Origin: Antedon mediterranea
Lineage: Eukaryota; Echinodermata; Crinoidea; Comatulida; Antedonidae
Assembly: GCF_964355755.1 (NCBI RefSeq)
Contig: NC_092670.1
Coordinates: forward strand, 18,909,201 to 18,973,200
Direction: 5' to 3'
Length of the DNA stretch: 64,000 nucleotides
Below are positions 18,801-54,013 of the stretch, in pieces. Made by a program: the position numbers and the translations under genes. The notes beneath the pieces were generated by a model that saw nothing but the letters and a program-made list of their open reading frames with translations, ran no database searches and was not told where the DNA came from. Each line of letters begins with the position of its first letter. Position 1 is the stretch's first letter.

Positions 18801-21800
18801 CCAGCAGTCAAATGCCTATCTTTTATTTTATTATTAGTTCAGCAGTCAAATACCTATCTTTTATTTTATTATTAGTTCAGCAGTCAAATGCCTATCTTTT
18901 ATTTTATTATTAGTTCAGCAGCAAATGCCTATCTTTTATTTTATTATTAGTTCAGCAGTCAAATGCCTATCTTTTATTTTATTATTAGTCCAGCAGTCAA
19001 ATACCTATCTTTTATTTTATTATTAGTTCAGCAGTCAAATGCCTATCTTTTATTTTATTATTAGTCCAGCAGTCAAATGCCTATCTTTTATTTTATTATT
19101 AGTTCAGCAGTCAAATGCCTATCTTTTATTTTATTATTAGTCCAGCAGTCAAATGCCTATCTTTTATTTTATTATTAGTTCAGCAGTCAAATACCTATCT
19201 TTTATTTTATTATTAGTTCAGCAGTCAAATGCCTATCTTTTATTTTATTATTAGTTCAGCAGTCAAATGCCTATCTTTTATTTTATTATTAGTCCAGCAG
19301 TCAAATGCCTATCTTTTATTTTATTATTAGTTCAGCAGTCAAATGCCTATCTTTTATTTTATTATTAGTCCAGCAGTCAAATGCCTATCTTTTATTTTAT
19401 TATTAGTTCAGCAGTCAAATGCCTATCTTTTATTTTATTATTAGTCCAGCAGTCAAATGCCTATCTTTTATTTTATTATTAGTCCAGCAGTCAAATGCCT
19501 ATCTTTTATTTTATTATTAGTTCAGCAGTCAAATGCCTATCTTTTATTTTATTATTAGTCCAGCAGTCAAATGCCTATCTTTTATTTTATTATTAGTTCA
19601 GCAGTCAAATGCCTATCTTTTATTTTATTATTAGTTCAGCAGTCAAATACCTATCTTTTATTTTATTATTAGTTCAGCAGTCAAATGCCTATCTTTTATT
19701 TTATTATTAGTCCAGCAGTCAAATGCCTATCTTTTCCATAACCTGGCAATGTTTTCTATCGTTTTCATTTATGGATTTGATTCTCAAGACCATTAGAATG
19801 GAGAATTATTTTACTGAAAGGCTGTCAGAATTGAGCAATTTGCATAATTAATATAAACAAAATTGCCACTATTTTTGTACAAGCATGCTATATCTCTGGA
19901 AATACTGGACGTATTGAGTTAATTTTGGTGTCAAATTGTTCACAATGTGTATGTTTATATTAGCTGTAATAGAACATTTTTTGTAAAATTGACACACTTA
20001 TTAGAATCATCATCATCATTACATCAACATCAAAGTATTACAAATGTTTTATCCACTCCTCTTCTAGTTGTTGAAGGTATCTACCTATTTACAAGTGGTA
20101 TACCAGACCAGCTTCCAGATGTCATCTGCTCTTATGTTGAAGAAGCTTCAGTTGGCCAAGTCACAAAGATCCATACCATCCTCTTCAACGTTGATGACTA
20201 CGATTCTAACGGCGCCATCCCAGGACGCTATGCCAACATCACACAGACGGCAGAATGTCTGCGAAATCTTGCACATGTTAGTGGTGGTCGGTTTCATTGG
20301 TTCAGAGAGACTGGAATTATTGAGAGTGATGATATCAAAGCTATTTTAGCTGAGATGGATAGGGCTGTGAATTATTCTCAGAAAGTGAGTACTTCAATAA
20401 TTCTGTCATCTTTGTTTTTTTTAATTTTTTTAAATTTTTTTTGCATATTAATATCTAATAGTTTATATTTCATAATAATTAGTAATCCATAATGATATAA
20501 TATGATTAGTTTCAATACTCTTTTGGTGGTGCAACTTGTAGTATCTATTTCATTCATTTATTATTGTTTTTCCTAATTTTTCATTTTCTAAATAGAAATA
20601 AAATAAATTGTATTGTATGGTAATACAATATAAGTTTTCAATATGTATAAATTCCATGTGTTTTACAATAAATTTGTATTTTAATTATTTGTTTCAGTGT
20701 GCAATGTTATTAGATACAGTAAAGAAGAGGATGCCAAGGACGAAACAAAATGTATGTATGATTCATTTTATTTTTTTTATTAATACACACAACATAAAGC
20801 TCTGTCCACACTAGCAAATATGGTAGTGATATGACAGCATCGTGTGTGCACATCACATTTTTTGTCACATAAAGTTTGATAGTGTAAACAGAGCTTAACA
20901 CTATGTTAACAAATTTGTTTACTGGAGTTGTTTTGTTTATCCATAGGGAGATTCAAGCAGCGGAAATGAATCAAAGATGTTACCGAAGAGACCTACTTCA
21001 GGCAAGAAGGCTTTACCAGCAGCCCCTAGACATACTGAACTCAGTCGGGCTAGAATGGTAAGTACATTTCATATAGTAATAGCACTATGCATTAAATATG
21101 TATGCAAAGAATATGTCTATGGAGTTGAACAGAAATGAACAAATTAAATATAAATGGAAAAGTTATTTCATGAATAGTGTTTGCGTTTGAATACATATTT
21201 ATGAGTATAATTGTACTTGAGCTTGACATCATTGTTTGTTGTCTTTTCTTTTAGGGACAAGATAGCCAAGAACATGAAGAGACTGTCAAAGCTATTGGAT
21301 GGCGTCCTATCAGTGCCAACAAAAATCTTATTCCAACAGGTAATGTTAGTTTTCAATGGTTAGAATTTGATTTGGAAAATACTATAATCATTGACCTACT
21401 GTATGAGTAATGTGATGATAATACATCTAATTTCAGCTCCACAACCTCCTGTTATGTCAAAGAAATCAACGAAAGAAACAACTGCAAAGAAAACAACTAC
21501 ATCTGTGAAAAATAAAAGAAACAAAGAAGTATTCTACACAGAATTCAGAAATGAAGTTGGTGAGTAATGCAATCTGATTAATAATCTCGCCCACTAATTT
21601 GGGATTCTATTCTGTATTCTATCTCTATATATATATATATATATATATAAATCCAAAGGCAAATTACTGAAAAAAATGACAATGCTGTGGGTATCAGTGG
21701 CTGGATCTCAATGGAGATACAAAAATAAAAAGCGAAAAGCTAAATCAAAACGATAAAGTAAACAGCCAGAAAAGTTAGCAGAGCTTTCGGGCAAGACTAG

Positions 21801-24800: not shown

Positions 24801-27800
24801 GTTATCTTTACCTGCAGAATCTGCGCTGAAATAACTAAGTCAGGATTATTTTTCAGAATTGTATTTTGTTAGCTTTAGAATGTTACTTATATTTAAATAC
24901 ATGCATTGGTTTTGATGTCACAAAATAACATAAATAAACTAAAGAAAAATGATCTTCAACCGCAGATAACTTGGACTTATGTTGTTAAAATAGCATAAAC
25001 ATACTGTTATAAAGTTCAATATTTTCTTTTAATCCTTTCTAATCAACGAGATTATCTTGAAATCTCATAAACAGTACATTCTGATTTATCTTAATCTTGT
25101 TGCTTGTCATCATTCGTCTTTTGACGGTCACATGACGAGAAGCGAATCCATTAACAGTGTTCTTATTTAATTCTCGTTGATGTTTTTGACCAATTCGGTC
25201 TAATCCCCTGTGATAGCTTAATCTTCAAACAGCATAGTTAACATTTAGGTGTATTGCCCCTTTTAAAGTTAGTATAGGAAAAAAACATTCATTTATTGAG
25301 AAGACCATCATAGATTGGTTTACTTTAGAATAGTAAACAAAGTTTTTCTTTTCAGAAAAAAATATATTTATTGTACTAGTACTTTTGTCTGTAAGCTATC
25401 ACAAATTACTAAAGATGCAAGACATTCTTTATCATAGATTGTTTTACTTTATATAAACAAATCTGTCTATGTTACAACTTTGATTTTTATAGTTAGTATC
25501 AATATATCTTATTATTAGCAGAGTATTAGTCAAAAAGAGTGTACAAAATATGTAATGTGTTCTATTATTAAATTAGATTTAAATTTTTATTTCAGTACAG
25601 CAAATGTATTTCTTAAGCAACTAGCTGCTATGTCTAGGGGGCGCTATCACCGATGCTACGGACAGATGGATGGTGATATGTTTACCCACAAGCTTCTATC
25701 AGAAGGCTCTCAAGATGCCCAGGTAATAGCAAATGGGAATATTAGGTTGAAGAATATTCTGTTGTGGTAAAATTTCTCTCACTAAATCAAACCTCTTTGA
25801 CTAGCAGTGGATGGAATGAGATTCTGATCTATTCCATTAATTTTGTATGCAACAACATTTTATGTAATAGCCTCTTTCTCTTTGTAAATGAGACCCGCTA
25901 TTTCTATCTTCGTTTTTCTCTCTTTCGTGTAAGCAACCCACTTTTATTTCATTCAAACTTTTATCATTACATAAAGTCAGCATTTTAAAAAGGATATCAA
26001 TAAAATCAATAAGAAATCTGTTTTTTTATATGGACAGCACATTAAGGCTGTAGCATAAAATGCACATTATTGTTTTATCCTTATTTTCCGTGTTAAGGTC
26101 AGAGAAATGAAGACATGTTGAAAAAACAACTATGCTGCTTATCATAATGTGAATTAATATTAATATTACAATCATTTTCTATCAACTTGTTTTAACATGT
26201 TCAGTATGTGCTCTTAATTAATTCGTCACTTGAGGATGGTACAACAATAATTAATTAAAAGTGCTCTATGCATTATTAGTAATACATTAACACACAGTTG
26301 ATTTTCATTTTACATAATAAGCAAGTGTATCTAGCAATACATCTGCATTATTTAGAATTTTAGCGCTTTTAACCGGATTGTTCCAGTATTTGAAATAATT
26401 GCCGTGAAGGTTAAACATTCTTGTTCATTCAAGTCATTAGAAGTCGTTTTTCTCTTGTGGCATACTACTACCACATTTATTCATTCATCAATTCATATAC
26501 AAATATTGCAACATTGAACACATTTATCAATACTTCATAAGCATAGGCAATCCAATGACATTTGTACAAAAAAGAACTATTATTATTATTTTATAAGAAT
26601 CAAATATTGGTAATAATTAGAATTGGGGTACTACTATCTTGTAAGCTGGGCTACTATACCAATATTAATATTTTATTTATTTATTTCATTTTAACCTCCT
26701 TCTGCTCCTTCAATCAATGTTTTATTACAGTAGTATTCTATTTTCTAGTTTCCCCAGTTACCATGCTTTGAAGGGGATGATTTACGACTTCTTGGAGCAG
26801 AGATTAATCTGGCACGTCAGTTTTTGTCCCAATCCAGAACATTCCGGGATCTCTTTGCCACTACACCAAGCCCTCATGAGAACGGTAAGAACTAATATAA
26901 TTGTTTTATGAACTGAAACAAATTGATTGGGGTATGCGATCATTGTGGGGCATTTAGGGTATGCCATCATTTTGAGGCATGAAGGGTATGCGATCAATGT
27001 GAGGCATGCAGGGTATGCGATCAATGTGAGGCATGCAGGGTATGCGATCATTGTGAGGCGCGTGGGATATGCCACTATTGTAAGGCGCTTGGGGTATGCC
27101 ACTATTGTAAGGCGCTTGGGGTATGCCACTATTGTAAGGCGCTTGGGGTATGCGATCATTGTGAGGCACATGGGGTATGCGATCATTGTGAGGCACATGG
27201 GGTATGCGATCATTGTTATGCATGTGGGGTATGCGATCATTGTTATGCATGTGGGGTATGCGATCATTGTTATGCATGTGGGGTATACCATCATTGTAAG
27301 GCATGCGGTGTATGCCATCATTGTGAGGCATGCGGTGTATATGCCATCATTGTGAGGCATGCGATGTATGCGATCATTGTTATGCATGTGGGGTATACCG
27401 TCATTGTAAGGCATGCGGTGTATGCCATCATTGTGAGGCATGCGGTGTATGCGATCATTGTTATGCATGTGGGGTATACCGTCATTGTAAGGCATGCGGT
27501 GTATGCGATCATTGTTATGCATGTGGTGTATGCCATCATTGTGAGGCATGCGGTGTATGCGATCATTGTTATGCATGTGGGGTATACCGTCATTGTAAGG
27601 AATGCGGTGTATGCCATCATTGTGAGGCATGCGGTGTATGCGATCATTGTTATGCATGTGGGGTATACCGTCATTGTAAGGCATGCGGTGTATGAGATCA
27701 TTGTTATGCATGTGGGGTATACCGTCATTGTGAGGCACATGGGGTATGCGATCATTGTTATGCATGTGGGGTATGCGATCATTGTTATGCATGTGGGGTA

Positions 27801-28724
27801 TGCGATCATTGTTATGCATGTGGGTATACCGTCATTGTGAGGCATGCGGTGTATGCCATCATTGTTATGCGCGCAGGGTATACCATCATTGTGACACATG
27901 CTGGGTATACAATCATTGTGAGGTGCGTGGTTTCCCAAAACTCCTTCCCTTTAAACTTTCATGACAACTAATCTTTGGCTGGCAATAAAGAAAAGAATAC
28001 TATTCTAAAGAATTATTTTTTAACTTACATGAATGATTTACATGTTTGTTTTCATAATGCTATCAGAAACAAGTGAAGTTGACAAAACCGATTTCAAAGG
28101 TGACTTGATTTTTCTTCAAACCCCTTTGGGCATAGTTTGACTATCGCTTTGCTATAGAGCTTAAATTATTAAGATTTATGAGAATTGAGAGTTGTTATGT
28201 ACGCATTTAAAACATCTAAACTACGTAATGTTGGTCTTTTTATCTGATGCTATATATCATACTGTAAAGTGTTGATCCTTTACTCCATGATATTAGTAAT
28301 GTAAACACTCTACATATTCCTTTGTAATATATCATTGTTAGTGTCAAGATTATTATTGCATATTTTATGTGCTTCTTGTGTATCTGTTTCTGCTGCGTTT
28401 TTTTCGAAACGAGAAATCTGTTGTTAATTAACGTAAATGATGAAAGATTCACTGCTGGTGCTTATTTGATGGTGGAGCCTTTTATTTTACTGTCGTCATT
28501 TAATAACAGTTTATTTTAGTACAAATAACTTCTCTTTATCTTTTATTTTCTGTGATGCCGCTTATTATACTGTACTCTTGCAATTGACATGTTGTGTGTG
28601 AAAAGGATATTGTTTGGTTTTGCAGTATTGAATTTAAAGTTGATAAGAATTTTATTAAATTACAGGTAAAAAACTGGAATCATCTTTGAGTAAATTACAA
28701 CCTGTCAGCAGTGCCAGCAGTTGA
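6887..28724 (+). CDS. VWA3A: von Willebrand factor A domain-containing protein 3A-like, 32 exons
   Basis: Complete 1288-residue model; coding exons total 3867 nt and every junction keeps frame. Exons: 6887-6906, 7305-7526, 7889-8084, 9046-9170, 9348-9431, 9695-9749, 10003-10104, 10464-10570, 10804-10929, 11320-11428, 11887-11952, 12363-12494, 12920-13058, 13298-13401, 13636-13811, 14087-14206, 14331-14405, 14554-14648, 20068-20384, 20698-20751, 20947-21057, 21255-21339, 21437-21559, 22279-22376, 22534-22686, 22874-23020, 23226-23332, 23702-23846, 24151-24302, 25596-25722, 26749-26884, 28666-28724. An acidic run spans residues 49-66. Three vWA folds start near residue 243 (VAVMVDTSDAN), 589 (RIVMMVDLSASN) and 1048 (VVILVDTSGSM, an intact MIDAS, with MLTDGKPD later). 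Each is preceded by a Y..R..WL..SR.(V/L)FG helix. A Lys-rich linker lies at about 791-947. The repeated W-L-x-x-(H/N/Y)-G-L-x-x-x-K-L modules are typical of VWA3A/VWA3B. The DUF4537-type tail of VWA3B is absent, hence VWA3A. Vertebrate VWA3A is known as a ciliated-cell transcript; function unknown. No signal peptide. Confidence 0.87.
6955..7215. repeat. CTAG/AGGCCTA-rich tract in intron 1 of the VWA3A-like gene
   Basis: Dense CTAGCCTAGCTAG, GGCCTAGG and TAGCTAGC words at 6965-7025 and 7105-7215, starting about 50 bp after the first coding exon. The same kind of tract follows or flanks the putative start at 29.6 kb and the survivin start at 62.9 kb. Confidence 0.6.
8390..8635 (+). repeat. LINE 3' end with short tandem tail (intron 3)
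   Basis: The sequence TTTTAACCTTGATTACTAAA followed by TAAAGAA and three copies of ATTCAAA is typical of the 3' end of L2/CR1-like non-LTR retrotransposons, which end in short tandem repeats rather than poly(A). No coding sequence remains. Confidence 0.55.
8878..9018. mobile_element. PIF/Harbinger-type MITE, copy 1 (intron 3)
   Basis: 141 bp with terminal inverted repeats AGCTCTGTCTACACTATCAA and the complementary TTTGATAGTATAGACAGAGC end, flanked by a 3-bp target duplication TTA (8875-8877 and 9019-9021). A TWA duplication with short TIRs is the PIF/Harbinger (Tourist) signature. No coding capacity. Confidence 0.8.
10270..10405. repeat. Interspersed repeat R1, copy 1 (intron 7)
   Basis: Shares an ordered set of words with the reverse complement of 24320-24505: CTGAGGCCC, GGTTT..GG.ACCCTAAGTG, CCTTCCAAC, GACATATTTTAATGCCTGT, GGGTTTAGCCA. 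The 24.5-kb copy ends in a GTGGCGTAACGTAG-like terminus, a common DNA-transposon end. Class not established. Confidence 0.65.
13478..13602. mobile_element. PIF/Harbinger-type MITE, copy 2 (intron 14)
   Basis: 125 bp. The left end is identical to copy 1 (AGCTCTGTCTACACTATCAA); the right end is mutated (GTGTAGATGAGAT). Target duplication TAA at 13475-13477 and 13603-13605. Confidence 0.8.
14764..19735. repeat. 38-bp intronic satellite, about 131 copies (intron 18)
   Basis: A head-to-tail array of nearly 5 kb fills most of the 5.4-kb intron between exons 18 and 19. Each unit is a T-rich 17-mer, TTTTATTTTATTATTAG, followed by TYCAGCAGTCAAATRCC and TATC. Two positions account for most variation: C or T in TYCAG, and G or A in AATRCC. 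Rare variants recur, such as loss of GT in CAGCAGCAAATG (16793 and 18919) and ATCTTTTCTTTTATT (about 17608 and 17797), which shows that multi-unit blocks were copied. The period of 38 is not a multiple of three, so it is not coding. Confidence 0.98.
20798..20895. mobile_element. PIF/Harbinger-type MITE, copy 3 (intron 20)
   Basis: 98 bp, ends AGCTCTGTCCACACTA and TAGTGTAAACAGAGCT, target duplication TAA at 20795-20797 and 20896-20898. The interior is shortened relative to copies 1 and 2. Confidence 0.8.
21625..22240. mobile_element. Long-TIR non-autonomous element with nested SINE (intron 23)
   Basis: Arms of about 140 bp (21648-21790 and about 22100-22235) are inverted copies: AAATCCAAAGGCAAA, GACAATGCTGTGGGTATC, TCTCAATGGAGATACAAA, ACAGCCAGAAAAGTTAGCAG. 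TA-dinucleotide runs lie at or next to both outer ends and inside. A tRNA-derived SINE occupies the middle (21857-22060). Confidence 0.75.
21857..22060 (-). repeat. tRNA-derived SINE, family A, copy 1
   Basis: The minus-strand head is a tRNA-like fold: AGCCCCAGTGGTCTAATGG (A box), anticodon arm CTGC-ATATCAA-GCAG, T arm GAGTTCGAGTCTCGG (B box). The tail runs through GATGAGGAAATCTG..TTTGAAACGAT to TTAATTAATTAAATTTCAG. The same head plus tail recurs at 54563-54772, and tail alone at 40555-40630. The anticodon would read ATC, unusual for a working tRNA. It is therefore called a SINE rather than a tRNA gene. Confidence 0.85.
23340..23480 (-). repeat. LINE 3' end remnant (intron 27)
   Basis: Begins with repeated AATTC units (TTCAATTCAATTCAAATC) followed by AACATTTATTTCTTCCACA, the reverse complement of a typical L2/CR1-like 3' end with a short tandem tail. 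No coding sequence. Confidence 0.45.
24320..24505. repeat. Interspersed repeat R1, copy 2 (intron 29)
   Basis: Inverted relative to the copy at 10270-10405. It contains GAGCGCTCACTGGCTAAACC, TACAGGCATTAAAATATGTC, CACTTAGGGTTGCC and GGGGCCTCAGGGATC, ending in ACGTTACGCCACTA. Confidence 0.65.
26927..27925. repeat. 27-bp minisatellite, about 37 copies, with 81-bp higher-order units (intron 31)
   Basis: Starts 42 bp after the exon-31 donor. Units alternate words such as GGGGTATGCGATCATTG plus TTATGCATGT, and GCGGTGTATGCCATCATTG plus TGAGGCAT. Between about 27380 and 27720 three variants cycle in fixed order (TACCGTCATTGTAAGG, TGCCATCATTGTGAGG, TGCGATCATTGTTATG), a higher-order unit of 81 bp. The length is nine codons, so open frames of up to about 345 codons exist on both strands (e.g. 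MHNNDRIPH repeats). These are by-products, not genes. Confidence 0.97.
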
Positions 28725-31369: not shown

Positions 31370-31745
31370 AGTTATAGAATTGGAACGCTTTTTAGAAGGA
31401 TTGAACCGTGTTGTCAACAACTTTCTAAATAAAAGAAGACAACATTTTAGAATATACCAGATAGAACCAAGTCTGACACTTTTAGAAGGATTGAACCATG
31501 TTGTTTAAAACTTTCTTCAAATAAAAAGAAGACAACATTTTTTAATATTCCAGGTAGAACCAAATCTGACACTTCAGCCAATTCTGCTACTGTCAAGAGG
31601 TATCTATCTATATATACCTCTTGACAGTAGCAGAATCGGGTCGAAACTTTTAGAAGGATTGAACCATGTTTTTTGAAACTTTCTTAAAATAAAGAAGACA
31701 ACATTTTAGAATATACCAGGTAGAACCAAGTCTGATTTTAAGAAG
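31370..31745. repeat. Three ~115-bp direct repeats with an embedded perfect hairpin
   Basis: Repeats share TTTTAGAAGGATTGAACC, AAGAAGACAACATTTT and CCAGGTAGAACCAA at about 31385, 31480 and 31645. Between copies two and three, 31581-31603 and 31614-31636 are perfect inverted copies (ATTCTGCTACTGTCAAGAGG..) around a 10-nt loop. The block lies just beyond the stop of the minus-strand gene, possibly in its 3' UTR. Confidence 0.75.
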
Positions 31746-31879: not shown

Positions 31880-34800
31880 CTAATTCCATTCAATGCAAGT
31901 TTTCATAGTTGCAACTGTTTCACGCAAGTAGCCTCCAAGTGATATAACTGCAACTGCAGTACAGTGTCCAAAACAACCATATCCACCGTCTAATAAAACA
32001 TGAAATAAATGCAATTATTAGGAAGACTTGTAAATTGTATTTACGATATTGACTATGACTAACAGACGTTAATTACTAGTTTCTTCATATTAATTATGTT
32101 ATGCAGAAGGGCGTAATCAAGTGTTTTAGTTACGTCAACCTTAATAATAAATGTACGTCAATTTACTAATGTTTATTATGTGATTATACCATTATATTAA
32201 AAGCCATTATTTACATGTTCTTTATTGGATGAAACATTCTAGTGTACTTGTAATATTTACTATTTTAAAGTAAGGTCATGTAAACTACAGTTACATCGAT
32301 GCTTTAGGCCTGATGGAAAGAAAGTGCAGTTAAAGTTTATTCAATTATGCTCTAAGCTCGAAATAGGATCGAATGGCACTTAGATTCAACGCTATCATAA
32401 TTGTAGCCAATCCCTTAAAGGAATCAATTATTTAATGGTAAAGAGGGCTTCTTAAAATAAAATTAAATAATATAACATTTATTGGTGGCGAAGACCTTTA
32501 TGACGAGACGAATAAGGTCATCGAGGTCATTAGATTAGCATTAGAAACGTGATGATATTTATTTCACATTGCGTGTCAAATAATGTTCCCAGGCTTATAC
32601 GTTGATGTTTTAATGACGGGCCATTAGTGGATTAGAATGCGATCGTTGACTTTAATGGTTTGCTCTGTTGAGCACCGTGCCTCGTGATGTAGATACGTAC
32701 AGCAAAATCAACAGATAAACTCCATGATATCGTCGGCAATAAGTGTAGGCTACTTGGAATCTGCAATGCATTAGCGTTAACGCCTAATATTGTAGTCCGC
32801 TAATTATTGATTACGAATGAAAAATTATTTCGTGTGAGTATGAGGGTTTTCTGACGTCACCGATGTATTTACTTTCACTTACCAAATATACGCTTTCTCT
32901 ATCACTTATTTAATTTTTTTATTTCGTAGGTATACTCCTTATTCATAAAAATAACATTTTTCATACAATAGGCCTAATGATAGTTACCTGCTAATTTTAC
33001 GTCCATTCGTTTTCTTCGATAACCAGAATTTTCTAAAGAAATAAAACGATTTGTGTGTTATTTTTGTTTTAGTGAACACTTTAATAGAAATTGTTATCGA
33101 CAATTACTGTCTACGTCATAACACGTCATAACATCATCTGAATATCAATTGTTTTATGCGCTGTTCTATCACACAGTTCAATGAGGTGGTACAGTTTTGA
33201 ATTAATTATGCTTCCCACTCGTTTTCGCAATATTTAAACTTACCAGATAATTTTGAATTAATGACTGAGAAACACCCACTATCTAATTGCCAACTTAGGA
33301 TATAATTCAGCCAATCAGAACGTAGAAATTCCTTATAACCTAATAAGCCGCCACAAAATGCAACTGAAAATTAAATTAATATATAGGCGTTATCGACAAG
33401 TTCATTAAAATGTATACAGTAATATTAATTCTAGTTTGTGAAAGAAATTCAGCTTTTCATATGTTTCAAAAACATGCCTATATGAAAATAAACTTTTTAT
33501 AGAATCTTAATTTAGGCTTCTAAAAGATAAAACTTTAAGCTAACGTGTAGCGTGTTACAATACATGATTGGGCAAAAAAAAAAAGAATGTTAAGAAGTAA
33601 TTAGGGCCTGTATTAATGTTAATTCAGAAAACAAAAATACTAAATGAATGCCAATGTTTACTATTGGTATGATAATAAAGGTTAAAATTATGATATTAGC
33701 CTAATAAGGAAAAAACAGAAAATAATGAAAAAGGTAGAAAATGTTTAGAAGTTATGTAATAAAACATTGAATGAATAAAGGTGGTGGTCCACAAAAGATT
33801 AAAAAAAAATACATGATTGCGCATTATCGTATTATAGGAAAAAAAGAACTGAACGAAGTGAATTTACGTACTTTGTTCCATAAATAGATCATGGTCGATT
33901 CTACCATTAAACTCCGTTTTAGAAAGATCACTGGCTTGCTGAAATATATTTGAACACAAACCCTTGATGACATAATCATTTCGTTGATGACGTATGCGAT
34001 CATAGCTAAAACACCGAAGCTAAAATTATGTAAAAGAAAAGAGAGTTATTTCAGGTTTTGATAAAGGCAATAATAATATTTTTTTGTTTCAAATAGTCAT
34101 CATTTTGATAACGACAGTGGGAGAAACTAGCAAGAATCACAAGAAGGCCGAACGTTTTGAAGGTTATCCAAAACTCAAACTATTTTCTTTTCTTCGTTAT
34201 GATTTATATTTAGTGAAAGTTACTTAGATGTTTTCCATTACATTAGGTAATTTATTCCATTGATGTTTTTTCATTTTGAGAAGAGTTGCTAAATTTGTTC
34301 TGGAATAAGTTATATGAAATCACGTAATAATTTATTTTACTTACGCGGTCTATTAGTATAAAGTAGAGAAGTTGGTGAGTGACCTCATAACCCTTATATC
34401 CATCCGCCTCCATTATAGCTAGGCATTCACTTGCAATTGTACATTTCTTTTTTGATGGTCTAAAAGAGAACAATAATTTCTAACATATTAATAAATTATG
34501 TTTTACATGTAAAAAGTACAACAACTTGTGCGCTTAATTTCTTATCAGACAAATATCGTGACACCCTAATTACTTTATTGAAAACTTTCAAGTATCATTA
34601 AAGTTTTTGTAAACAAAAGTACAGAATTTATCACTATCATTTTACAATTATTGTTGAAAGTATGTGAATGGTACCGATAATGTCCTATTTATTATAACAA
34701 CGTACTTTGATATTAATTATGCGTCCAATTTACTAATGTAAATGTGTTTTCCTATGCACTGACTTAATTTGATGCCAAATGTTACCGTATCGTGTAGGCC

Positions 34801-37800
34801 TATATAAAAAAGAGCTGTTTAAGATTCGTTTCTAAACGCTCGCGTGCGCTGTTGATTGACAGACAATGAGTAGACGAAACGTGATGAATCTTATAGTTGC
34901 GCGCGCATGTGGATTAACTTTTAAAATGGTACATATACAATATGCACGGTTGGTGTTAAAATTCTTCTGCTTAAAATGTTACATAGAAACACATTGACTT
35001 TTTTCAATAACCGAATGAAAATATCTCTTATGATCTCTTCAATATGCCGCGTATGAAAGTATATCTTAAATATTTATAAAAGAATTTTTTTTCGCAATAA
35101 AAACTGTACTGAACATTCTGCTTATCCCTCAAAATGCGACCGGATGAAAACGTTACTTAACAGCTTAAATACAAGAGCTATATCCTACAAACCTTTACCG
35201 GATAAAAAAATCTACTTAATGTTAGTATATATCGGCATTTCTTGCAAAAATCAATCTCAAAGAACTATTTCAAAGATTAAATATACCGTGGATGTCTCAT
35301 GACGTCAACATATCTTACAAAATAAAAAGTGCAATTTACGTCGACCCATTAATAGGTATAGGCCTAAAAGGTCTTGCATTGCGTAATGAGTTCAAGTTAT
35401 AAGTATACTGTATTAGATTGAATTGGTTTTGTCAAAAATACAGTATGCATTGGTGAAATTATCATGTTTTTGTAAAAGAAAATAAGTCAAGGAAGGATAC
35501 TGCTTTTGTTTTGGGCTCAGTTCGGTTTGGGTTTTCATAGTTGGCTGACTTACCCGGTACCGAGTAGTTCTGTCAAGCACCTATCGCTAGCCGCTTCTGT
35601 TATCTTCTCTACCTGGTTGTTGCCAAATGAAAATGGCGTATTCAATAACACATGATCTTTATTCCAACTACTTACGGCCCAGAATTCTTTTTTAAGAAGT
35701 TCTGAAAAATCTAAAGCATAGTAAAGAAGCATGTAGTTAGATTGACAATTTCTATCTTCGTATGTTTAAGTAACCATTTTAAAAGAAGTTCTGACAAATT
35801 TAAAACGTAAGTAAAAAAGCATGTTTGATTGACAATGTTCTTTCTTTTCGTATGCTTTATAGCAGGCCCTAACTCTTTTAAAAGAAGTTCTGAAAAATCT
35901 AAAGCATAGTAAAGAAGAATGTAGTTTGATTGACAAAATGTTCTCTCTTTTCGTATGTTTCATAGTAACCTTTTTTTTTTAAAGTTCTGAAAAATCTAAA
36001 GCATATTAAGAAGAATGTAGTTTGATTGACAATGTTCTCTATTTTCGTATGTTTCATAGTAACCTTTTTTTAGAAGTTCTGAAATATCTAAAGCATAGTA
36101 AAGAAAAATGTTGTTTGATTGACAACATGTTCTATATTTTCGTATGTTTGATAGTAATCTTTTTTAGAAGTTCTGAAATATCTAAAGCATAGCAGTGGTG
36201 GCGCCAGCGGGGGGGCTACGGGGGCTCTAGCCCCCTCGTCGGGGAGCCTAGCCCCCCCGTCGGGGAACACGGGTACTTTTTGTCGGGGAATATAACATAC
36301 AGTAAAAAACGTTCGCGTTCACTTCATATAGCTTCAGCGCCTAGAAAACCACGACGTTCCATTGACCGTGAGAGTACGTCAGAGGGCTATTATGCACTTT
36401 TATGCATTCATTATTGCCAGAGATCTAACTACTAAACAATAGCTAGTACGCACTTGTTTGGCGGTATCCCTTTGTACAATCGTTCACCGTTGGGTCGAGA
36501 CGCGTGATATCATGTTCCATCCAGGGACCAAAATGTGTAATGTAGTTATTTTCCAGGCGAAGTTTACCGACGGTTCGGGTACTTTTTGTCGGGGAATATA
36601 ATTCGTTCGCGTTCACTTCGTAGCTTCAGCGCCTAGAAAACCTCGACGTTTCATTGACCGTGAGAGTACGTCAGAGTGATATTATGCACTTTATATGCAT
36701 TCATTATTGCCAGCGATCTAACTTACTACTAAACAATAGCTATAGGTACGCACTTGTCTGGCGGTATCCCTTTGTACGAATCGTTCAACGTTGGGTCGTG
36801 ATATCATGTTCCATCCAGGGACCAAAATGTGTACTGTAGTTATTTTCCAGGCGAAGTTTACCGACGGTTACATCGTGTACTGTGTCGACGTAGCCTACGC
36901 TACACTACAGCAAAAACGAATTATGTTAATTGTTCGTATGTTCACCAATTTTTTAATTGACAAGTAACCTTCTGTACCGTGGGGCACCTAAAATAAATAT
37001 TTCATCCATTACTAAACAAAAAAACATGCCATTTTCGCTTAGCCAACATCTTATTATAGCTAAGTTATTAAATTTTCAATGTCCTGTATGTCATGAATTT
37101 CTCACCACTCGGAAGTCCAGATGGTACGCAGGCATACACTTGGGAGGAATAAACTTATTTCCCCGACTGAAAAAGGTACGCTTGCGTTTTTTAAGCCTCT
37201 GGACCTGATGTTTCCAAAGTATAAAATGCAATTTTTCGAAGACCTGCAGCTCTAGTTTTAAACATTTTCTTAGCTCAGCCCCAACAATAAAGCTGGTCAT
37301 ATTTCGAAGTACAAGAAGTGCATTTTCCGGGACCTAACATCTCTATTTTTCAAACATTTCTTAGCTCAGTCACAACCCTGATAGGGACTTATATATTTTG
37401 TTTCATGTTTTGAAGTATAATAAGTCCAATTTCCAGGACCTCCAACTCTATTTTTCTAAATTTTCTTTGAACTTTTATTTTTTAAATTGAAAAATATGGA
37501 TTGAAACAGTCATCGCGCATCGTTTTTTTGCACGCAGTATTTTATTTATGCATTATAAAAAATGGAAAAAACGGCTACCCTAAATCTGATTAAAATGACC
37601 TCAAATGACGCTAGAACGCGTTGCTTCCGGGGGCTTCGCCCCCTGGACCCCCACCGGGGTCCTTGGCGGCCCCCTGGCCCCCAGCCTTGTGATGCTCGCA
37701 TAGCCCCCCTCGTCGGGGGAATGTAGCCCCCGCGTCGGGAAGATCCTGGCGCCACCCCTGAAGCATAGTAAAGAAGAATGTAGTTTGATTGGTGATGTTC

Positions 37801-40800
37801 TCTATTTTCGTATATTCCAACCCTTTTTAAGAAGTTCTGGAAAATCTAAAGCATAGTAAAGAAAGATGTATTTCATTGACAATATTCTTTATTTTCGTAT
37901 GTTTCATAGTAACCTTTTTTTTAAGAAGTTATGACAAATCTAAAGCATAGTAAAGACGCATGTAATTTGATTGACAATGGTCTTTATTTTCGCCTGTTTC
38001 ATGATCATTAGTAACCACGTGACTTTGTTTCGTACGCCTTCATCTTTAAAATCCAGAAAACATTATTAATCAAAACCGCAAAAGAGACATCAGTTAGACC
38101 TAATGTGTGTGATTTAATAGAAGATTAAGCAAATAGATGACTCCATGGGGAATGCGATGCATATTATTGATCTATAAGGAGCCTGATGATAAATGTTTAA
38201 GAAAATCATTACTGTAATTAATTATGAATATCTGCGTGGGTAATTTTCAATAATAATACAGATTATTATTATAAGTGTATTATTATAACTAAAATATGTT
38301 TACATATATACGTAATTCATACGGTATTAATCAAAATTGATTCGTTAATATCACTCTTCCTAGTTGTTGATGTCCATGTATAATGAGTTAATCACAAATG
38401 ACTCAAGGCAGTAACAAAAACTTCACAACCTATTGACCCCTAGCGCATCCATCCAGATCAATTTTTATATACGAAATGCCATCATATTCAATGTAGGTAT
38501 TACTAATCAACGTTAACCAGATGTAAGAAATTATGATACCTTTTAATTATAAGGCTGTGTCGTCCACGTATTGGCTTTATCGATTTGGTTGTAGAGTTTA
38601 CGGTACACCATTATGGATCAGTGACGCGAGTGTTAAGAATACGCGATTAGTAATCTGAATTCTTCGTCGAGTTAATCGGTGCGTAACAGAATTGGCGCCG
38701 ATGTATATGCACCGTAATGTTATTTATATGGCTACTCACTATGTGCCTAGCCATTATTACTAAATTTACAACCTGATTTTCTCCAGTATTACAACTGGAT
38801 TGTTTCCAGTATGGATAGGTGGGATTCGATTCTTTCAGCGTCGTCACCGATAACTTTCATTTTCCTGCTCTTATTTTTTCAACTTGAACATCATCGTCAT
38901 CTTGATGATCACATAGCTTCATTATTTTATAATACGATTATCAACACCAGCGCTTGACTTTTTTAACGTCTTATTGTTGAAACACAGATTACATTACGGT
39001 ATATGATATAATAATATACATTCTTAATTGGGTAGGCCTACAACAAAGCACTTTCCTCGCCATCCCTAAATAATCACGTTATGGTTATAGGTTGCTAGAT
39101 GTAAATAAAAGACGGATAAAGACATAAATAACACTTACTATTGTAGTACACGGGCAATGTTCTGTATACATAAGGTTTAGCAAGAGTTACTATCTCATCA
39201 ATGAAAGTGGACATTGCAGCTAGCCTGGCTTGTAAACTACCTTTTCCCGATTCAGTAGGTAGATATGGAGTTCGCACAAATGCGGCTTTGATTTCAGCTA
39301 AAATAGAAAAATGTTTTATTTTTATTTTATTTTATTAATTTTAGCAACATTAAAACAACACATAAACTTTGAGTGTCAAAGGACCACTGTCGCCATAAGG
39401 CGTGCCACACCAGCACTCAAAGCATACATTAAAACATAAAACAATGTAAATATGTAATATTAATACAATAATTATATACATTAAAGAGGCATAGTATTTT
39501 TAAAGTGGTCCATTAACAATTTTTAAATTGTACCCAACTTCCGCAAACAAAGGCGTCTTTAATATTGACCGGTAGTGTATTCCACAAACGAATAAATCTG
39601 GTTGGGATACAATTCTTTCCACTATCAGTTTTGGATGCAAGATGTTTAAAAGTTAGAACATCCAATGTAATATTAATTATATTGAAAATTGCGTTTAGTT
39701 ATGTTCGTTGAGTAGAACTGCATTATTATAATGAACTAAATCACAAACAGCACTCATTTTTGGAACATAGTTCATCAACGAATTTTCCATTTTTAAACAT
39801 CTGTTCCATTGTATATTTTAGGTTATAATTTATTGTTATGGCATTTTGAATTGATTGTCATAAATCTGAGGATAATGGAAGGAATATTATCAAATGATGA
39901 ACAGACTCTATTCCCGGACTTATTATTACAGGTAAGCATTAATTATTGTAGTGTAATTATCAGTTAATAAAAGATATCAGACCATATAAAACATAGAAAG
40001 AGCCAATACCACAATGCTTGAGTTTACAAACCTGTGTTAGATATATGTTGCGGCTCAGGTAACAACATGGGGTACTGATCTGAAGGATAATAGTTATTAT
40101 ATAACACCTATATAAATTCCTGTCATTTGATTGGACGAATGTGGGTCACATGGCGTGCAATAGTACGCACTATTCAACGATCGTTAAATAGTACTTTTTC
40201 AAATAACTAGAATTTATTTAGATGTTATATAAAACAAATAATGAATGTTTTGTATTCGTGTAATGGTACAAATAATGGCACTTGGTGAATGATGAAAGGT
40301 TATATCAACTCGGCTTTGCCTCGTTGATATAACCTTTCATCATTCACCTCGTGCCATTATTTGTACCATTACACTCATAAACATTTGTATAATATTCCCT
40401 ATTATAAGTTTGGCTAGATCAAGTGTATATTTTATAGTTTGTATTTGTTAATTTCCTTTCGAATCAGCAGCACATGAGTTAACACATCAAGAAAGTTTCG
40501 TAACTGGTAATTTAAAAAAAAAAACAGAAAAGAAGAGCAATATCTCGGTTTTACCATTCTCACAGATTTCCTCATCTTATCGTTTCAAATTAATTAATAA
40601 TTGTAATATAACCGGACGATTTAGATTGTTGCTTATGAAGGTAAAAGAACTTCTATGTGAAATTTTCTTCTGAGCACTCACGCTTAACGCGTTAGTTTTT
40701 GCGATGATTAATGCATCTTTTCTGCGACATTAGGGTTTGTTTCTCTTGTGGTTAAAAAAAATAGAATAATTAACCCAGTATAGCCGGCCGTACTTCAAGG

Positions 40801-42382
40801 AAATATACCACACTCACCGCGTGACGTGACTTTTATCACGATAGAAAGTCACGAAATTAAATATATAAATGAATAATAACGCTATACGTTACACGTAAGT
40901 GAGAAATAATGTACAACTTCAGAAATATTGGAGTACAATTGGCTAATGCTACAGCTACGTATTCAGAGAAAACAGTAGTACACGACTTCAAAACTCCATC
41001 GATATTTTCTGTGAATGTTATACGCCTTAAGATATGTTTCATCGAAATGCACTATGATCGTTAATTCAATCAATTTCTTGTTAGCAACTCCACGGATCAC
41101 AAATTAATGAAAATAGCCTTGTATATGCAGTTACTGCATGTATTCCCATTTGATTCTACAGAAATCTACAGTTGCGAATAGGCCTACTACATAGATTTAT
41201 TCATAATTAGAGACCAATTTTATAGTCAGGACTAATACAACCTAGCTCACAAAAATGGTATATCTATACTAAACGTCATTCCAAAGACTTCTAAAACGAG
41301 TGGTATTTGGAAGAATTTAGAATCCAATTCTGGAGAAATAAGTTACTCAACTTGCAGTATTTTTCCATGATCCAACTTACTTAACACCACGAAGGTAGAC
41401 AGTATTATTTGTTTTGTCTCCATGGTAAATCTAAATATTGACTTCATAATATTATTCTAAAATCAAGTAAAATATTTGTATCTCGTAAAAAATAAAAAAG
41501 CTAATTTTGCAAAATTGTTTTGTTATCCATGTACCTATGACGAATAATGGAATTTACAGGTAGTAAGCCTTTTGTATTTTACTGATCAAGATCATGGTAT
41601 TGCTGCATGTTGTGAAACAAAACAACGTAGATAATTAAGAAGATATGTTTTGTTTAATATTCGAAGCACGTTTCAATTGCAAATTGAATTTTCAACTATA
41701 CATAACGGTAGTGAAATAATCTATTAGTCTGGTTAAAAATTGTTTTTAAAGTCATGGTGTAACCCATATATTTGAGTGGTTTCTTTATTATTTGTATGTT
41801 AAGTTTTACAAAGGCTATACAATGAGTCTAGGCTTTTTAGTGGAGTTGTGGCTTGGTGGTTATGATTCTGTCTGTCCTGGGTTTAAATCCTGTCATATGT
41901 CAGGATTTTTTTAAATGACAAATTAAAACGCCACTTCCAAAGACTTTGTTTATGTAGAGCATATTGTATATGTTTACTTTTAAGAAGGATAGTGAATGAA
42001 TTCGCTTATGGTTATCCTTGGCAATTTGCCGAAATATATATATAAAAAAATACTAAAATTATGTGCAGTTGGAATAAAATATAACGGTCTTTTGGTCCTA
42101 ATTTTGGAGTACAATTTCTACACCCATGGAGAGACAACCGAACCCCAAAAGTTCTTTTGTTTAAAAGATAAGTAGTAAGTACAAACCTTGCGTCATTCGT
42201 AAACCTGAGATAACATCTAAATTCAATGAATCGTATTCTTTTCCTAAAAAGACCAGTGAGTTTTGTAGCGACGTCAAAATTGTCTCAAGTAGTTTTTCAT
42301 TCTGGACACAGTCTTGATTTAAGTCAGATGAGGATGAATGTATCAACAATAAGATGGTAAACGTAACCGTTAAGTATCCCAT
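31880..42382 (-). CDS. C16orf89: Secreted UPF0764 / C16orf89-family protein (DUF4735), 8 exons
   Basis: Complete 346-residue model. Exons in transcript order: 42382-42187, 39297-39139, 35701-35554, 34459-34345, 34019-33872, 33363-33244, 33032-32988, 31989-31880 (stop TAG); 1041 nt, all phases consistent. Residues 1-19 are a signal peptide (MGYLTVTFTILLLIH). Family landmarks follow in order: NLDVISGLRMTQ, KKEFWAVSSW, RCLTELLGTG, CTIASECLAIM..GYKGYEVTHQLL, CSNIFQQASDL..DHDLFMEQ, IAFCGG..G..EFL..DWLNYILSWQLDSGCF, then GHCTAVAVISLGGYL. These match the vertebrate C16orf89 order (LLGTG, CLSHQLLFF, FCANMMDLN, MFCGMGGF, ILSWQ, TATAVAALGGFL). Human C16orf89 is a secreted thyroid-enriched protein of unknown function. 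Conserved Cys and Trp are retained. Exon 3 begins inside a tandem array (see 35690-38005). The 45-nt exon 7 is the least certain. Confidence 0.88.
35690..38005. repeat. ~95-bp tandem array containing the exon-3 splice acceptor, eight units
   Basis: Units start near 35694, 35780, 35882, 35980, 36070, 36164, 37827 and 37922 with AAGAAGTTCTGAAAAATC, then TAAAGCATAGTAAAGAA, TTTGATTGACAATGTTC, TTTTCGTATGTTTCATAGTA. Read on the minus strand, each contains CTTTAGATTTTTCAG|AACTTCTT, i.e. the acceptor and the first bases of exon 3 of the C16orf89-like gene. Only the first unit (35701/35702) is joined to real exon sequence. A hAT element splits the sixth unit. Confidence 0.9.
36193..37760. mobile_element. 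Non-autonomous hAT element, 1.57 kb
   Basis: Ends are CAGTGGTGGCGCCAG and CTGGCGCCACCCCTG, flanked by an exact 8-bp duplication AAGCATAG (36185-36192 and 37761-37768), which defines hAT. GC-rich subterminal blocks carry repeated GTCGGGGA and AGCCCCC words. Inside are two direct copies of about 300 bp (about 36270-36565 and 36575-36868), sharing TACTTTTTGTCGGGGAATAT, AGCTTCAGCGCCTAGAAAAC and TCATGTTCCATCCAGGGACC. No transposase frame seen. Confidence 0.88.
38006..39138. other. Intron 2 of the C16orf89-like gene, upstream part
   Basis: No repeat or coding segment recognised between the tandem array and exon 2. Confidence 0.4.
39300..39680 (-). pseudogene. LINE ORF2 C-terminal remnant with TTTTA tail
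   Basis: On the minus strand the sequence reads TDSGKNCIPTRFIRLWNTLP, then VNIKDAF and, after stops, VWHALWRQWSFDTQS. R-x-x-x-L-W-N-(S/T)-L-P is the hallmark C-terminal motif of L2/CR1/jockey-like ORF2 proteins. The 3' end runs into repeated TTTTA next to exon 2 of the host gene. Several stops; dead. Confidence 0.7.
40243..40387. repeat. Foldback element: ~65-bp hairpin
   Basis: Left arm GTGTAATGGTACAAATAATG, GCAC.TGGTGAATGATGAAAG, GTTATATCAAC and right arm GTTGATATAAC, CTTTCATCATTCACC.CGTGC, CATTATTTGTACCATTACAC are near-perfect inverted copies around about 10 unpaired bases. It lies in intron 1 of the C16orf89-like gene. Confidence 0.88.
40555..40630 (+). repeat. SINE family A, tail fragment
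   Basis: CATTCTCACAGATTTCCTCA followed by TCTTATCGTTTCAAATTAAT matches the tail of the SINEs at 21857 and 54563 in inverted orientation to them. The tRNA head is missing. Confidence 0.7.
41843..42050 (+). repeat. tRNA-derived SINE, family C
   Basis: The head GTGGAGTTGTGGCTTGGTGG (A-box-like) and GGGTTTAAATCCTGTC (B-box-like) is 30-40 bp apart, as in tRNA promoters. The tail contains GGTTATCCTTGGCAATTTGC, similar to GGTAATCCTTGGCCACATTG in the family B SINE at 59.57 kb, so both families share a 3' segment. Confidence 0.6.
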
Positions 42383-49432: not shown

Positions 49433-52400
49433 TTAAAGCAAAAATGGATTAGTTGCTTGGTTCTGTGGTGGCATCTGCATTGAATTTTGAGCCATCGGTA
49501 ATAACGGAGGTGGTAAGCCTGCTCCGGCACCCAACATCACAGGTTGTTGTCCCATACCAAAGCTACCAGGAACTGGTCCTCCAACCACAGGTTGAGCTCT
49601 CATCTGGTTTAGAGTCGGTCTTGGAGCTTGTTGTTGTTGGAAAGGGTTACTGACAGGTGCAGCTGCAGCTGAAGGAGCGGTACCAAAGACAAACGGGTTG
49701 ATTGGTTGGGACAGGCTCGACTGATCGGTTTTATTAGTGACTATTAACGAATCTAAATTCACCAGACTTGAGTTCTCTCCGAGGAAGTCCTCTGGTTTTT
49801 TCTGAGGCTTTGCTTTCTGTTGGTTCATCATCTGAGGCTGTTGTGGAATGGCATCATTTAAAAGATGCATATCAAAGGCACCGACAGGTTGTGGGTTTGA
49901 AGTAGTGTTTGATCGTAAGAGATCAAAATCCAGATCCGGATCACTCTGAGTTGGCGCATTACTGAATCCCCAATCTGGCTGGTTATTTGTAGCAGGAGCG
50001 GGTACTGGTGTGCCCAAATCCCAGGGATCATTCTTGACTGGTACTGATACTGGTACTGGTTCAGCTGTCCAGGGGTCAATATTTTGGGTATTTGGTTTAG
50101 CTGGTAATGGTGCTGGTGCAGCTACTGGTGGTGCTCCCCAGGGATCTGGCATTGGTGGTTTTGATGGTGCTGGTACTCCCCATGGATCTGCTGGTGGTTG
50201 TTGGTTAACGGGGGCAGCAGTTGAGGCCCATGGGTCAGTCAATGCTGTTGCAGTTCCACTGGATGGCATTCCCCAAGGATCTGCCTTTGCTGGAACCGGT
50301 GTTGGTTCAGCTAGGTTCAGAAGTGTTGGTTGTGGTTTGTTCTAAGATGGACAAAAAAGAACATACTACATGTTACAAGCCAACATACTGGGATCATGTT
50401 TTATCCCGGGTCTGTATACTGCACTTCTGAAATGACACTCATTTCAGAAGAAGAACCACCATTAAAAACAGTTTCAGTTTTAATTATGTTTCCTGTAATG
50501 ACAGGAATAGCATAATATTTGTAAGTATTTATAAATTACAGTAGAATATTATTACACAGTATGGGTCTTAACAGTTCAATGACAAACTAAAAATGTGAGA
50601 AAAACTTGTCTCAGAATTAAAAACAAATACAACTAATTTAAAGCCTAAAAAAATACATGTAAGCAATACAGTAAAATGTAAAACATACAGTAAGAATAAC
50701 TTACTTCCATGCTTTCATTCAATGCTATCTGGAGCCTAATATCATCACTTCGGGTCTGTTTTGTTTGTTGTTCGGCCTCCTCTCGTGACATAGCAAGGGC
50801 TAGCTGTAACTGTAAGTCCTCTTCTCCTGCAGTGGTTGGACGGGCTTGCTCAATCTCTGAATTGGCCGGCCTAGAATGATCATTATGGTCTCCTCCTGTA
50901 AAAACCAGAAAAAGGTCAGATTACCCACTGGGAGCTTACTTAACTCTGGGTAAATTGTTTGCCCAAATGTTGGTATAATCTGTTTGCCACAAATAAATTT
51001 CATAAAAAATTTCATAGTCTATCACTATCAGATCAAAAAAATGTGTCTGGAGTTGCATATAGCTCGCTTGAGGTTTAGGTTAGGGTGTGTACCTCTTGCA
51101 TCACTATCAACAGGTACAAGTAAGCCTAATCAGCTCTGATAGCATACTCAATTATAGTACAATATTGATAAATGATGATTTCATAAAAATACAGATCTTT
51201 GAAATGTGCACATTACTGTAAACTAAAGTGTCATTGTGACCTGGTTTTAGCCCTCTGGTATCTCAGCACCTCTCTCTATCTAATTTGAATCATTACTAAA
51301 TCTGTGCATACTTTATTCGTATTTATATCATAATTTGTCTACCGGTATCTCTACGTTCCTTCCTTGTTTTGGAACTTCATCAAAGGTATAAATGATTGTG
51401 CTAATGATGACTTTTTAGAAATATTATAATTATTTAATGATAATTCATTCAAACAGTGTTAACGGCACGTTATTACCTGGTCAATGGAAGAATCTTAATT
51501 CTCTGGGGGAATCTTAAGCGACATGATATGGAATCTATGTATTTACTTAGACGCTAATTGCATTTGTAAATTGGCTTGGTGATGCATCTATGGCATAAAA
51601 TAGCACGTGTAAAATTGTATTATTGTACTGTACATATGACATAGCATTTGCTATATTTGTATACTCCAAGTATCTCAAAATTAATTCTGGTAAAAAACAC
51701 CATATGAAAATACCTGGTTTTTTTTTAAAACCTCCATGCTATAAGGCTACTTCAAAAATCTTATTAAATCTTAAAATAATTCATTTGTAGGCCTAATAAA
51801 GTGAACTTATTTTCTTTTAAAACTGTATTTATTTGTAACAGCAGTTCTTAAATTCTGTGAAATATAAAGGTGCTGGGCTGTATGACAGATCAGAACAAAA
51901 CAACATTCTGGAACAACACCCCACAGACTTCTACAAGTCAACACTTGAGACAATGAAGAATCAACATAATGATGATACAGTGAATTGAAAAACTGCAATA
52001 GTAAGGTCAGTAATTACATGCATGGCTGCACAAAAGGATCAATATCGAGAATAGTAAATTAGCCTTTGATAATATCACAACCATCTTCTCGTTCCTGTGT
52101 GTTAATCAAATAGAATTGTTAAGACATACTGTAGAGTTTAAAAAAAGAAGAATGCTATATGATATACTGTTACTATCATTTGGGTTATCATCATTTAAAT
52201 GCATTTGAAATACTGACTAACAATTTGGACTTTGAGTTTTTTAAACATTTATTCTTAGAAATCATGAAGATAATGAATTTTAAATGGATTTGGCAAATAA
52301 ATTTAAACCAAAACTCTACTACCAGCATTTTATTTAGTAAATTGATCTATTAAATCAAAAATAGGCTTGATATGTTTTTTAATTGGAATGGCCAGAAACA

Positions 52401-54013
52401 AACATTAGGGTAGTAAGACAGTGGTTAGTAACATTATTTTAGAATGTCATTATCACTATTAGTACTATGCTGTACACTATACTATTTTGTAAATTGATCT
52501 ATTAAATCAAAAATAGGCTTGATATGTTTTTTAATTGGAATGGCCAGAAACAAACATTAGGGTAGTAAGACAGTGGTTAGTAACATTATTTTAGAATGTC
52601 ATTATCACTATTAGTACTATGCTGTACACTATACTATTTTGAGTAACTAAAGTGACTTTATTAATTAGTATACATGGAAGGGAACTCCCTGGAAGGTTCT
52701 GTGTGCAAATATGGACACAGATCTGTTTTAAAGCAAATAAGAGATAAAAATAGCTAACTTGACAGGGAGGTTAGGAAACTAAGTTTGTATACACCTGTAT
52801 CTGGACATAGTACCTGACTGAGGCTTGTAAGGAAGCTATACAACCCAGGCATCAATGCAACGTTAACAGGCTGAGTTTATACTAGGCTAACGACATTTAA
52901 CAACAGAGAATTTCCAATAAGCTTACTGTAATAATCACATTCAAAGATGGCAATTGGTTGGACACTGTTGGACATTTCATACTCTGAACATTAATTTAGA
53001 TTGTTACTGTCAAACCTGGTCATAAATAACATTTAATGAGGATGTCATGGGAATATTGCATTACAACATGCAGGAAGCCTTCAGTAACAAAGCTCATGAT
53101 CTTCTGTGTAGATTATCATTCATAAACATAACTGATATTACACTAAATAAAGCAGTCTACTTGGTAACATTTAGAATAATACAAAATATCTTTACTTTAA
53201 CTTTAAAAGTGAGTACTGTGCTGTCTATGATGATGACGTGTGTACTACTGTACTGTACTGTAAAAGACACCTTTAGGACCCAACAACAATTCTCTTTACT
53301 AGGGGTGTTGTGTTCTGAATAGGGATTGGCAATAGTGTTAAAACATATTCTACCTCGGTCATTGTGAGGAAAAAAGTGTCCCCTTAATAAATAGGATGTC
53401 CTCTGAATAGTGGTGTCCCAACTGTAACTGTATTAAATATTTATTCCCTAGACAACTTAATAAACTAACCTCCGTTTGAAGTTGGTGATGAGCTTGAACT
53501 TGATTCAGTCCCCGTCATATTTGGCTTTGTGTCGCTACCAATTCCTTGTGATGATTGCGCAAATCTCTCTTTTGCCTTCAGAGCACGCGTTCTTTCAGAT
53601 TTTAACCGCTCGTCATCCTTCAGTAGTGATACTAGATTCTTTGATTTCTCTCGTACATTCACTCCTTGATCTTTTCCATCTCGATCCAAAAACTGAAAAT
53701 CTTTTAATGTGTTGATTGCGAAGATGTTCTCCTTGCACTGTTGTGCGACCCGCTCGGACCCTGTCTTAATTATATATTCTAGCACCACTAAGGATTTATA
53801 AACGTGTCGCCAGTTTTTACCGTGGTCACTCAACCGTTTCCATAATAAGGTCATTATTTCTGTGAAGGCCACAACATTGTAAGTCAAATCCGCAATCTCG
53901 GACATGATAGAACTTGATGGGCCCCATGGATCGTTCGACGTGGCTTCTCGAACTTTGACCTGAGCAGGTGAATAGTTTTTAGCCACATTTTTCAATGATC
54001 TCATAGCTGACAT
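49433..54013 (-). CDS. EPN: Epsin, clathrin-associated endocytic adaptor
   Basis: 547 residues from three coding exons: 54013-53470, 50895-50705, 50341-49433 (stop). An acceptor at 54077-54078 shows that the first coding exon begins with 5' UTR at 54076. Residues 1-150 are an ENTH domain (VREATSNDPWGPSSSIMSEI, WRHVYKSLVVLEYIIKTGSE, DRDGKDQGVNVREKSK), which binds PtdIns(4,5)P2 and bends membrane. Exon 2 encodes two ubiquitin-interacting motifs (EEDLQLQLALAMSREEAE, SDDIRLQIALNES). The last exon holds six DPW AP-2-binding motifs, a clathrin-box-like LVNLD, and three NPF motifs for EH-domain partners, including the C-terminal NPFLL. Domain order and length match metazoan epsins; an invertebrate single epsin need not equal EPN1, 2 or 3. 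The intron 1 of 2.6 kb carries a perfect 152-bp tandem duplication. Confidence 0.96.
52337..52640. repeat. Perfect 152-bp direct tandem duplication (epsin intron)
   Basis: 52337-52488 and 52489-52640 read identically (both start GTAAATTGATCTATTAAATC and end CACTATACTATTTT plus G). No mismatch was seen by eye, so the duplication is recent or is an assembly artefact. Confidence 0.93.

Follow-up and report, generated by a model that had tools for sequence, protein, structure and literature searches.

Eight tandem copies of an intron–exon boundary in a crinoid DUF4735 gene, one of them interrupted by a hAT-type element

In the potato RdRp gene PGSC0003DMG402000361, Ma and colleagues described a tandem duplication across the intron 1/exon 2 boundary, in which the duplicated segment carries a putative branch site, a polypyrimidine tract and a 3′ splice site; the one extra copy led to the gain of a functional intron via a GTAAG donor, as confirmed by RNA reads (PMC4974935). 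Here, we analyzed a 64,000-nucleotide stretch of the genome of the crinoid Antedon mediterranea (the window), in which adjacent copies likewise hold the last part of an intron with its acceptor and the start of the exon that follows. The potato duplication represents the same initial event with a single additional copy, whereas the crinoid locus holds eight copies, has no good donor and gives no indication that an intron has arisen. The general process common to these loci is small tandem duplication inside genes, which can take in splice sites; what it produced here is a longer intron, not a demonstrably new one. The human IFI6 minisatellite, which Turri et al. reportedly found in 1995 to supply multiple splice donor sites, can be read as the mirror case: it too is a tandem array at an exon–intron junction with a splice site in each unit, but its units are short and hold donor sites, whereas the crinoid units are 94 bp long and hold acceptor sites. 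Neither an eight-copy acceptor array nor a direct acceptor precedent was found in a literature search of incomplete coverage. The crinoid array records a real event, ordinary in its mechanism and uncommon in its copy number.

The array lies in a minus-strand gene whose exons match Pfam PF15882 (DUF4735, C16orf89 family) in profile searches. A hand-built model of seven exons, all in frame, scored 174.4 bits over the whole protein (E 5e-51, profile positions 1–253) against a curated cut-off of 31.2, placing the product in this family. Exon 1 (42187–42382) provides the start codon and a signal-peptide-like N-terminus, and exon 2 (39139–39297) ends at the phase 1 donor TACAATA/GTAAGTGT, the slash marking the exon boundary here and below. 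Exon 3 (35554–35710), which matches PF15882, is bounded by the acceptor TTTAG/ATTTTTCAG and the donor GGTACCGG/GTAAGT; exons 4 (34345–34459) and 5 (33872–34019) follow in the hand model, and exon 6 (33244–33363) corresponds to about Pfam positions 203–234. A divergent DUF4735 paralogue with a different exon pattern is present on another contig (C10, L016:4582-6141). There, a single open frame (L016:5001-5405) matches profile positions 5–82 with a score of 13.6 bits, whereas the window gene has intron 2 in this region; this would suggest that the paralogue lacks an intron here, but the match is too weak to be relied on for the ancestral intron position. At 31390–31690, downstream in or near the DUF4735 gene, a two-copy 93-bp repeat lies beside a near-perfect inverted repeat (CTGCTACTGTCAAGAGGTAT and ATACCTCTTGACAGTAGCAG).

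The 3′ end of intron 2 is occupied by eight direct tandem repeats of ~94 bp each, at 35687–36192 and 37761–38018, with the minus-strand consensus GGTTACTATGAAACATACGAAAATAGAGAACATTGTCAATCAAACTACATTCTTCTTTACTATGCTTTAGATTTTTCAGAACTTCTTAAAAA. This agrees with the initial annotation, which had described eight tandem units of ~95 bp on this strand and at this place, only one of them attached to real exon sequence. That one is unit 1 (35687–35775), the predicted working copy, which joins the last ~65 nt of intron 2 to 24 nt at the start of exon 3. Counting away from the exon, it is followed on the same strand by the nearest decoy, unit 2 (35776–35870), and then by units 3 (35871–35975), 4 (35976–36067) and 5 (36068–36160), by unit 6 in an exon-proximal part (36161–36192) and a distal part (37761–37823), by unit 7 (37824–37917), and by the most distal unit 8 (37918–38018), which carries GGTTACTA at the array end and adjoins unique intron sequence. 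Each unit has two AGs spaced 9 nt apart, one in TTTAG and one in CAG, with two mutational exceptions: unit 2 has TTTAA in place of TTTAG but keeps its CAG, and unit 8 has CAT in place of CAG but keeps its TTTAG. Both AGs are intact in units 3, 4 and 7 (TTTTCCAG in the last), and units 5 and 6 have TTTAGATATTTCAG in common. Units 2 and 8 are also the most diverged, with unit 2 differing by 18.5% from the consensus. It had further been claimed that every unit carries the acceptor motif followed by the first bases of exon 3. With up to two mismatches, the 14-base motif is indeed present in all eight units, which account for 8 of its 14 matches in the window (2.4 expected from shuffles), but the exact TTTAGATTTTTCAG occurs in only three (units 1, 3 and 4) and is followed by AACTTCTT in only two (units 1 and 3), unit 4 having AACTTTAA in its place.

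The initial annotation had given the interval 35690–38005 for the array. The units do not run through it unbroken: two thirds of the interval is a 1,568-bp insert within unit 6 (36193–37760), with ends CAGTGGTGGCGCCAG and CTGGCGCCACCCCTG and with units on either side of the insert. The insert is flanked by an 8-bp target duplication, AAGCATAG, one copy of which ends the exon-proximal part of unit 6 (36185–36192) while the other starts the distal part. At the four other genomic copies that were resolved, a separate target duplication of 8 bp was found in every case. Non-autonomous elements of the hAT superfamily are characterized by target duplications of 8 bp and by short terminal inverted repeats of the CAG type, and the insert agrees with this in the five copies tested. 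Judging from the target-site length and the matching terminal repeats, it would be a non-autonomous hAT-type DNA transposon; no transposase gene was seen in the window's 1,568-bp copy. More than 30 further copies of the element are present in the genome, mostly 92–97% identical among the matches listed. The insertion is younger than the array and landed in a pre-existing unit 6, because the insert is 95–97% identical to its closest copies among the matches listed, whereas the array units differ by 5–32%, and because the target duplication consists of unit sequence. The insert also contains an internal 294-bp tandem duplication (36310–36869). In many of its genomic copies, the match falls into two pieces that overlap and are shifted by a few hundred bases, and the internal copy number of the 294-bp repeat therefore seems to vary between copies.

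The initial annotation had named dispersal of the units as a transposon as a finding that would refute its reading. Dispersal applies to the 1,568-bp insert but not to the units: a search with the array across the whole genome (354 Mb, 18 contigs) found no units beyond the array locus, and 27- and 30-base unit patterns, allowing three mismatches, matched at this locus only. We therefore rejected the units as a dispersed transposon, the insert alone being dispersed. The copies thus derive from the local gene, and since they are adjacent, in the same orientation and composed of exonic and intronic parts, they represent a tandem duplication spanning the intron–exon boundary. An assembly artefact is unlikely, as is a young array, because pairwise distances between units range from 0.045 to 0.32. 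Both ends of the array are complete units, one bordering on unique exon sequence (AATTCTGGGCC) and the other on unique intron sequence (AACAAAGTCACGT). Since a duplicated segment normally has the same limits as the tandem array that it forms, the segment here held the 3′ end of intron 2 (~65 nt) and ~24 nt of exon 3. A tree of the eight units, proposed earlier as a way to trace the duplications, was built with iqtree2; it gave moderate support only for the pairs of units 2 and 3 (77) and units 5 and 6 (72), and the order of copying was not recovered.

Family homology supports exon 3, as had been claimed, with the PF15882 match spanning the exon 2–exon 3 junction. The further claim that its functional acceptor is known, namely the CAG giving a start at 35701, was not borne out, as homology favors the AG 9 nt upstream (35710). 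Both starts are in frame. Starting after TTTAG adds three residues (...YYNNFSELLKKEFW... versus ...YYNKLLKKEFW...) and gives a Pfam score of 85.2 bits (TTTAG form, NFSE), compared with 76.4 bits for the CAG form (K). Seven arbitrary four-residue replacements for K reached 80.2–82.3 bits, which suggests that about half of the gain comes from the correct length and about half from the identity of the residues. When the search was limited to the exon 2–3 part, leaving off exon 4 as well as the conserved end of exon 3, the TTTAG form was recovered with an E value of 1.3e-4, whereas the CAG form was not found. TTTAG is also the ending of four of the gene's five other internal acceptors in the model. 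Exon 3 thus likely starts after TTTAG (35710) rather than after CAG (35701). A generic acceptor matrix modelled on vertebrate sites scores CAG above TTTAG (8.4 versus 6.3), and since both forms are in frame, both acceptors may be used. That splicing takes place at unit 1 at all is suggested by its position, because this unit alone has a strong donor at the distance of a normal exon (157 nt).

In its exonic part, unit 1 agrees with the DUF4735 family, which argues that the exon preceded the copies and that the acceptor spread upstream from it. Together with the whole units at both ends and the single locus, this supports the earlier proposal of an acceptor spreading into the intron by tandem duplication. 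The reverse history, in which an intronic tandem repeat came first and its edge gave exon 3 a new acceptor and its first codons, would also place the first 24 nt of the exon inside unit 1. We consider it very unlikely, given that these codons fit the family, that NFSE outscores all seven arbitrary replacements in a match that crosses the junction, and that no second source locus for the array was found in the genome.

A local duplication, followed by a hAT-type insertion and leaving seven neutral decoy copies that splicing skips, is likely the explanation of the locus. A segment of ~90 bp over the intron 2/exon 3 boundary (GGTTACTA...TTTAG/ATTTTTCAGAACTTCTTAAAAAAG) was duplicated in tandem, lengthening intron 2 from within, and more rounds of unequal exchange or slippage would have led to eight copies, after which a non-autonomous hAT-type element inserted into copy 6. 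Splicing of exon 3 would still use the exon's own copy, with TTTAG (35710) as the most likely site and CAG (35701) as a possible second one, and the seven upstream copies would be non-functional debris drifting neutrally, with a premature stop added whenever a decoy was occasionally used. Which acceptor is spliced, and how old the array is, we infer from the genome of one individual.

The state of the decoys bears on whether they have a function. The initial annotation had suggested that they could tune splicing, and decoy acceptors in use could sequester splicing factors or give stop-containing transcripts, thereby tuning expression. Several decoys score at the level of the real site (8.4–8.5 with the generic acceptor matrix), and reading from decoy acceptors through to the exon 3 donor gave a premature stop in 12/12 tested, as would be expected of a switch that damps expression. 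The AG was kept in 6/7 decoys at TTTAG and in 6/7 at CAG, but this retention equals the neutral expectation (5.8 at an overall divergence of 9%). The acceptor stretch is likewise not among the best-conserved windows: the decoy acceptor 14-mer has 7 mismatches, where 14-mer windows average 8.9, and 38% of decoy windows are as conserved or more so. In unit 1, changes number 0/39 in the 3′ part and 10/53 in the 5′ part (Fisher p 0.004), the ten being substitutions plus gap columns. The corresponding counts in the decoys are 17/267 and 40/363 (p 0.049), and this slightly lower 3′ rate could hint at weak constraint. However, the array offers no good donor partner, and unit 2, which as the nearest decoy would be the strongest competitor under exon definition, is without TTTAG. 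Conservation of the decoy acceptors does not clearly exceed that of the remainder of the unit, which gives no positive evidence of tuning, and we regard use of the decoys as very unlikely. A more specific form of the idea is highly improbable: in it, splicing at any of the seven upstream acceptors would run into a stop codon, and the set would act as a graded brake on productive exon 3 splicing whose strength would follow copy number in the population.

Skipped, neutral copies also fit the donor scores better than does an intron gain in progress. In the latter case, the unit junctions (AAAAG/GTTACTAT) would serve as donors and micro-exons would lie between small new introns; every duplication does set exonic sequence and a potential G/GT beside an acceptor, and the potato RdRp duplication, with a like layout, gained an intron (PMC4974935). 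Yet no strong donor was found within the array, where the best junction scores 4.4 compared with 7.1 for the exon 2 donor and 10.4 for the exon 3 donor, so that the duplicated acceptors are not accompanied by a usable new donor. The putative micro-exons would be only about 25 nt long and the unit length is not a multiple of three, making intron gain extremely improbable.

With about fourteen candidate AGs that are nearly identical, the array lets the choice made by the spliceosome be studied in a natural setting, and it illustrates how an intron grew by duplicating its own 3′ end and then by receiving a transposon. It also carries a warning for gene predictors, since repeat units can hold convincing acceptors and the AG that stands out most may lie 9 nt from the right one.

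Other tandem repeats were observed in the window. A large satellite-like array at 14762–19735 consists of 131 copies of a 38-bp unit (97% match) and has a strong strand skew, and a 27-bp unit (TGGGGTATGCGATCATTGTGAGGCATG) is repeated in 37 copies at 26928–27923 (82% match). At 52331–52641, a 152-bp direct repeat in two copies with a 99% match represents a recent tandem duplication, and the array at 60772–61199, in which a 21-bp unit occurs 20 times, also with a 99% match, is apparently recent.
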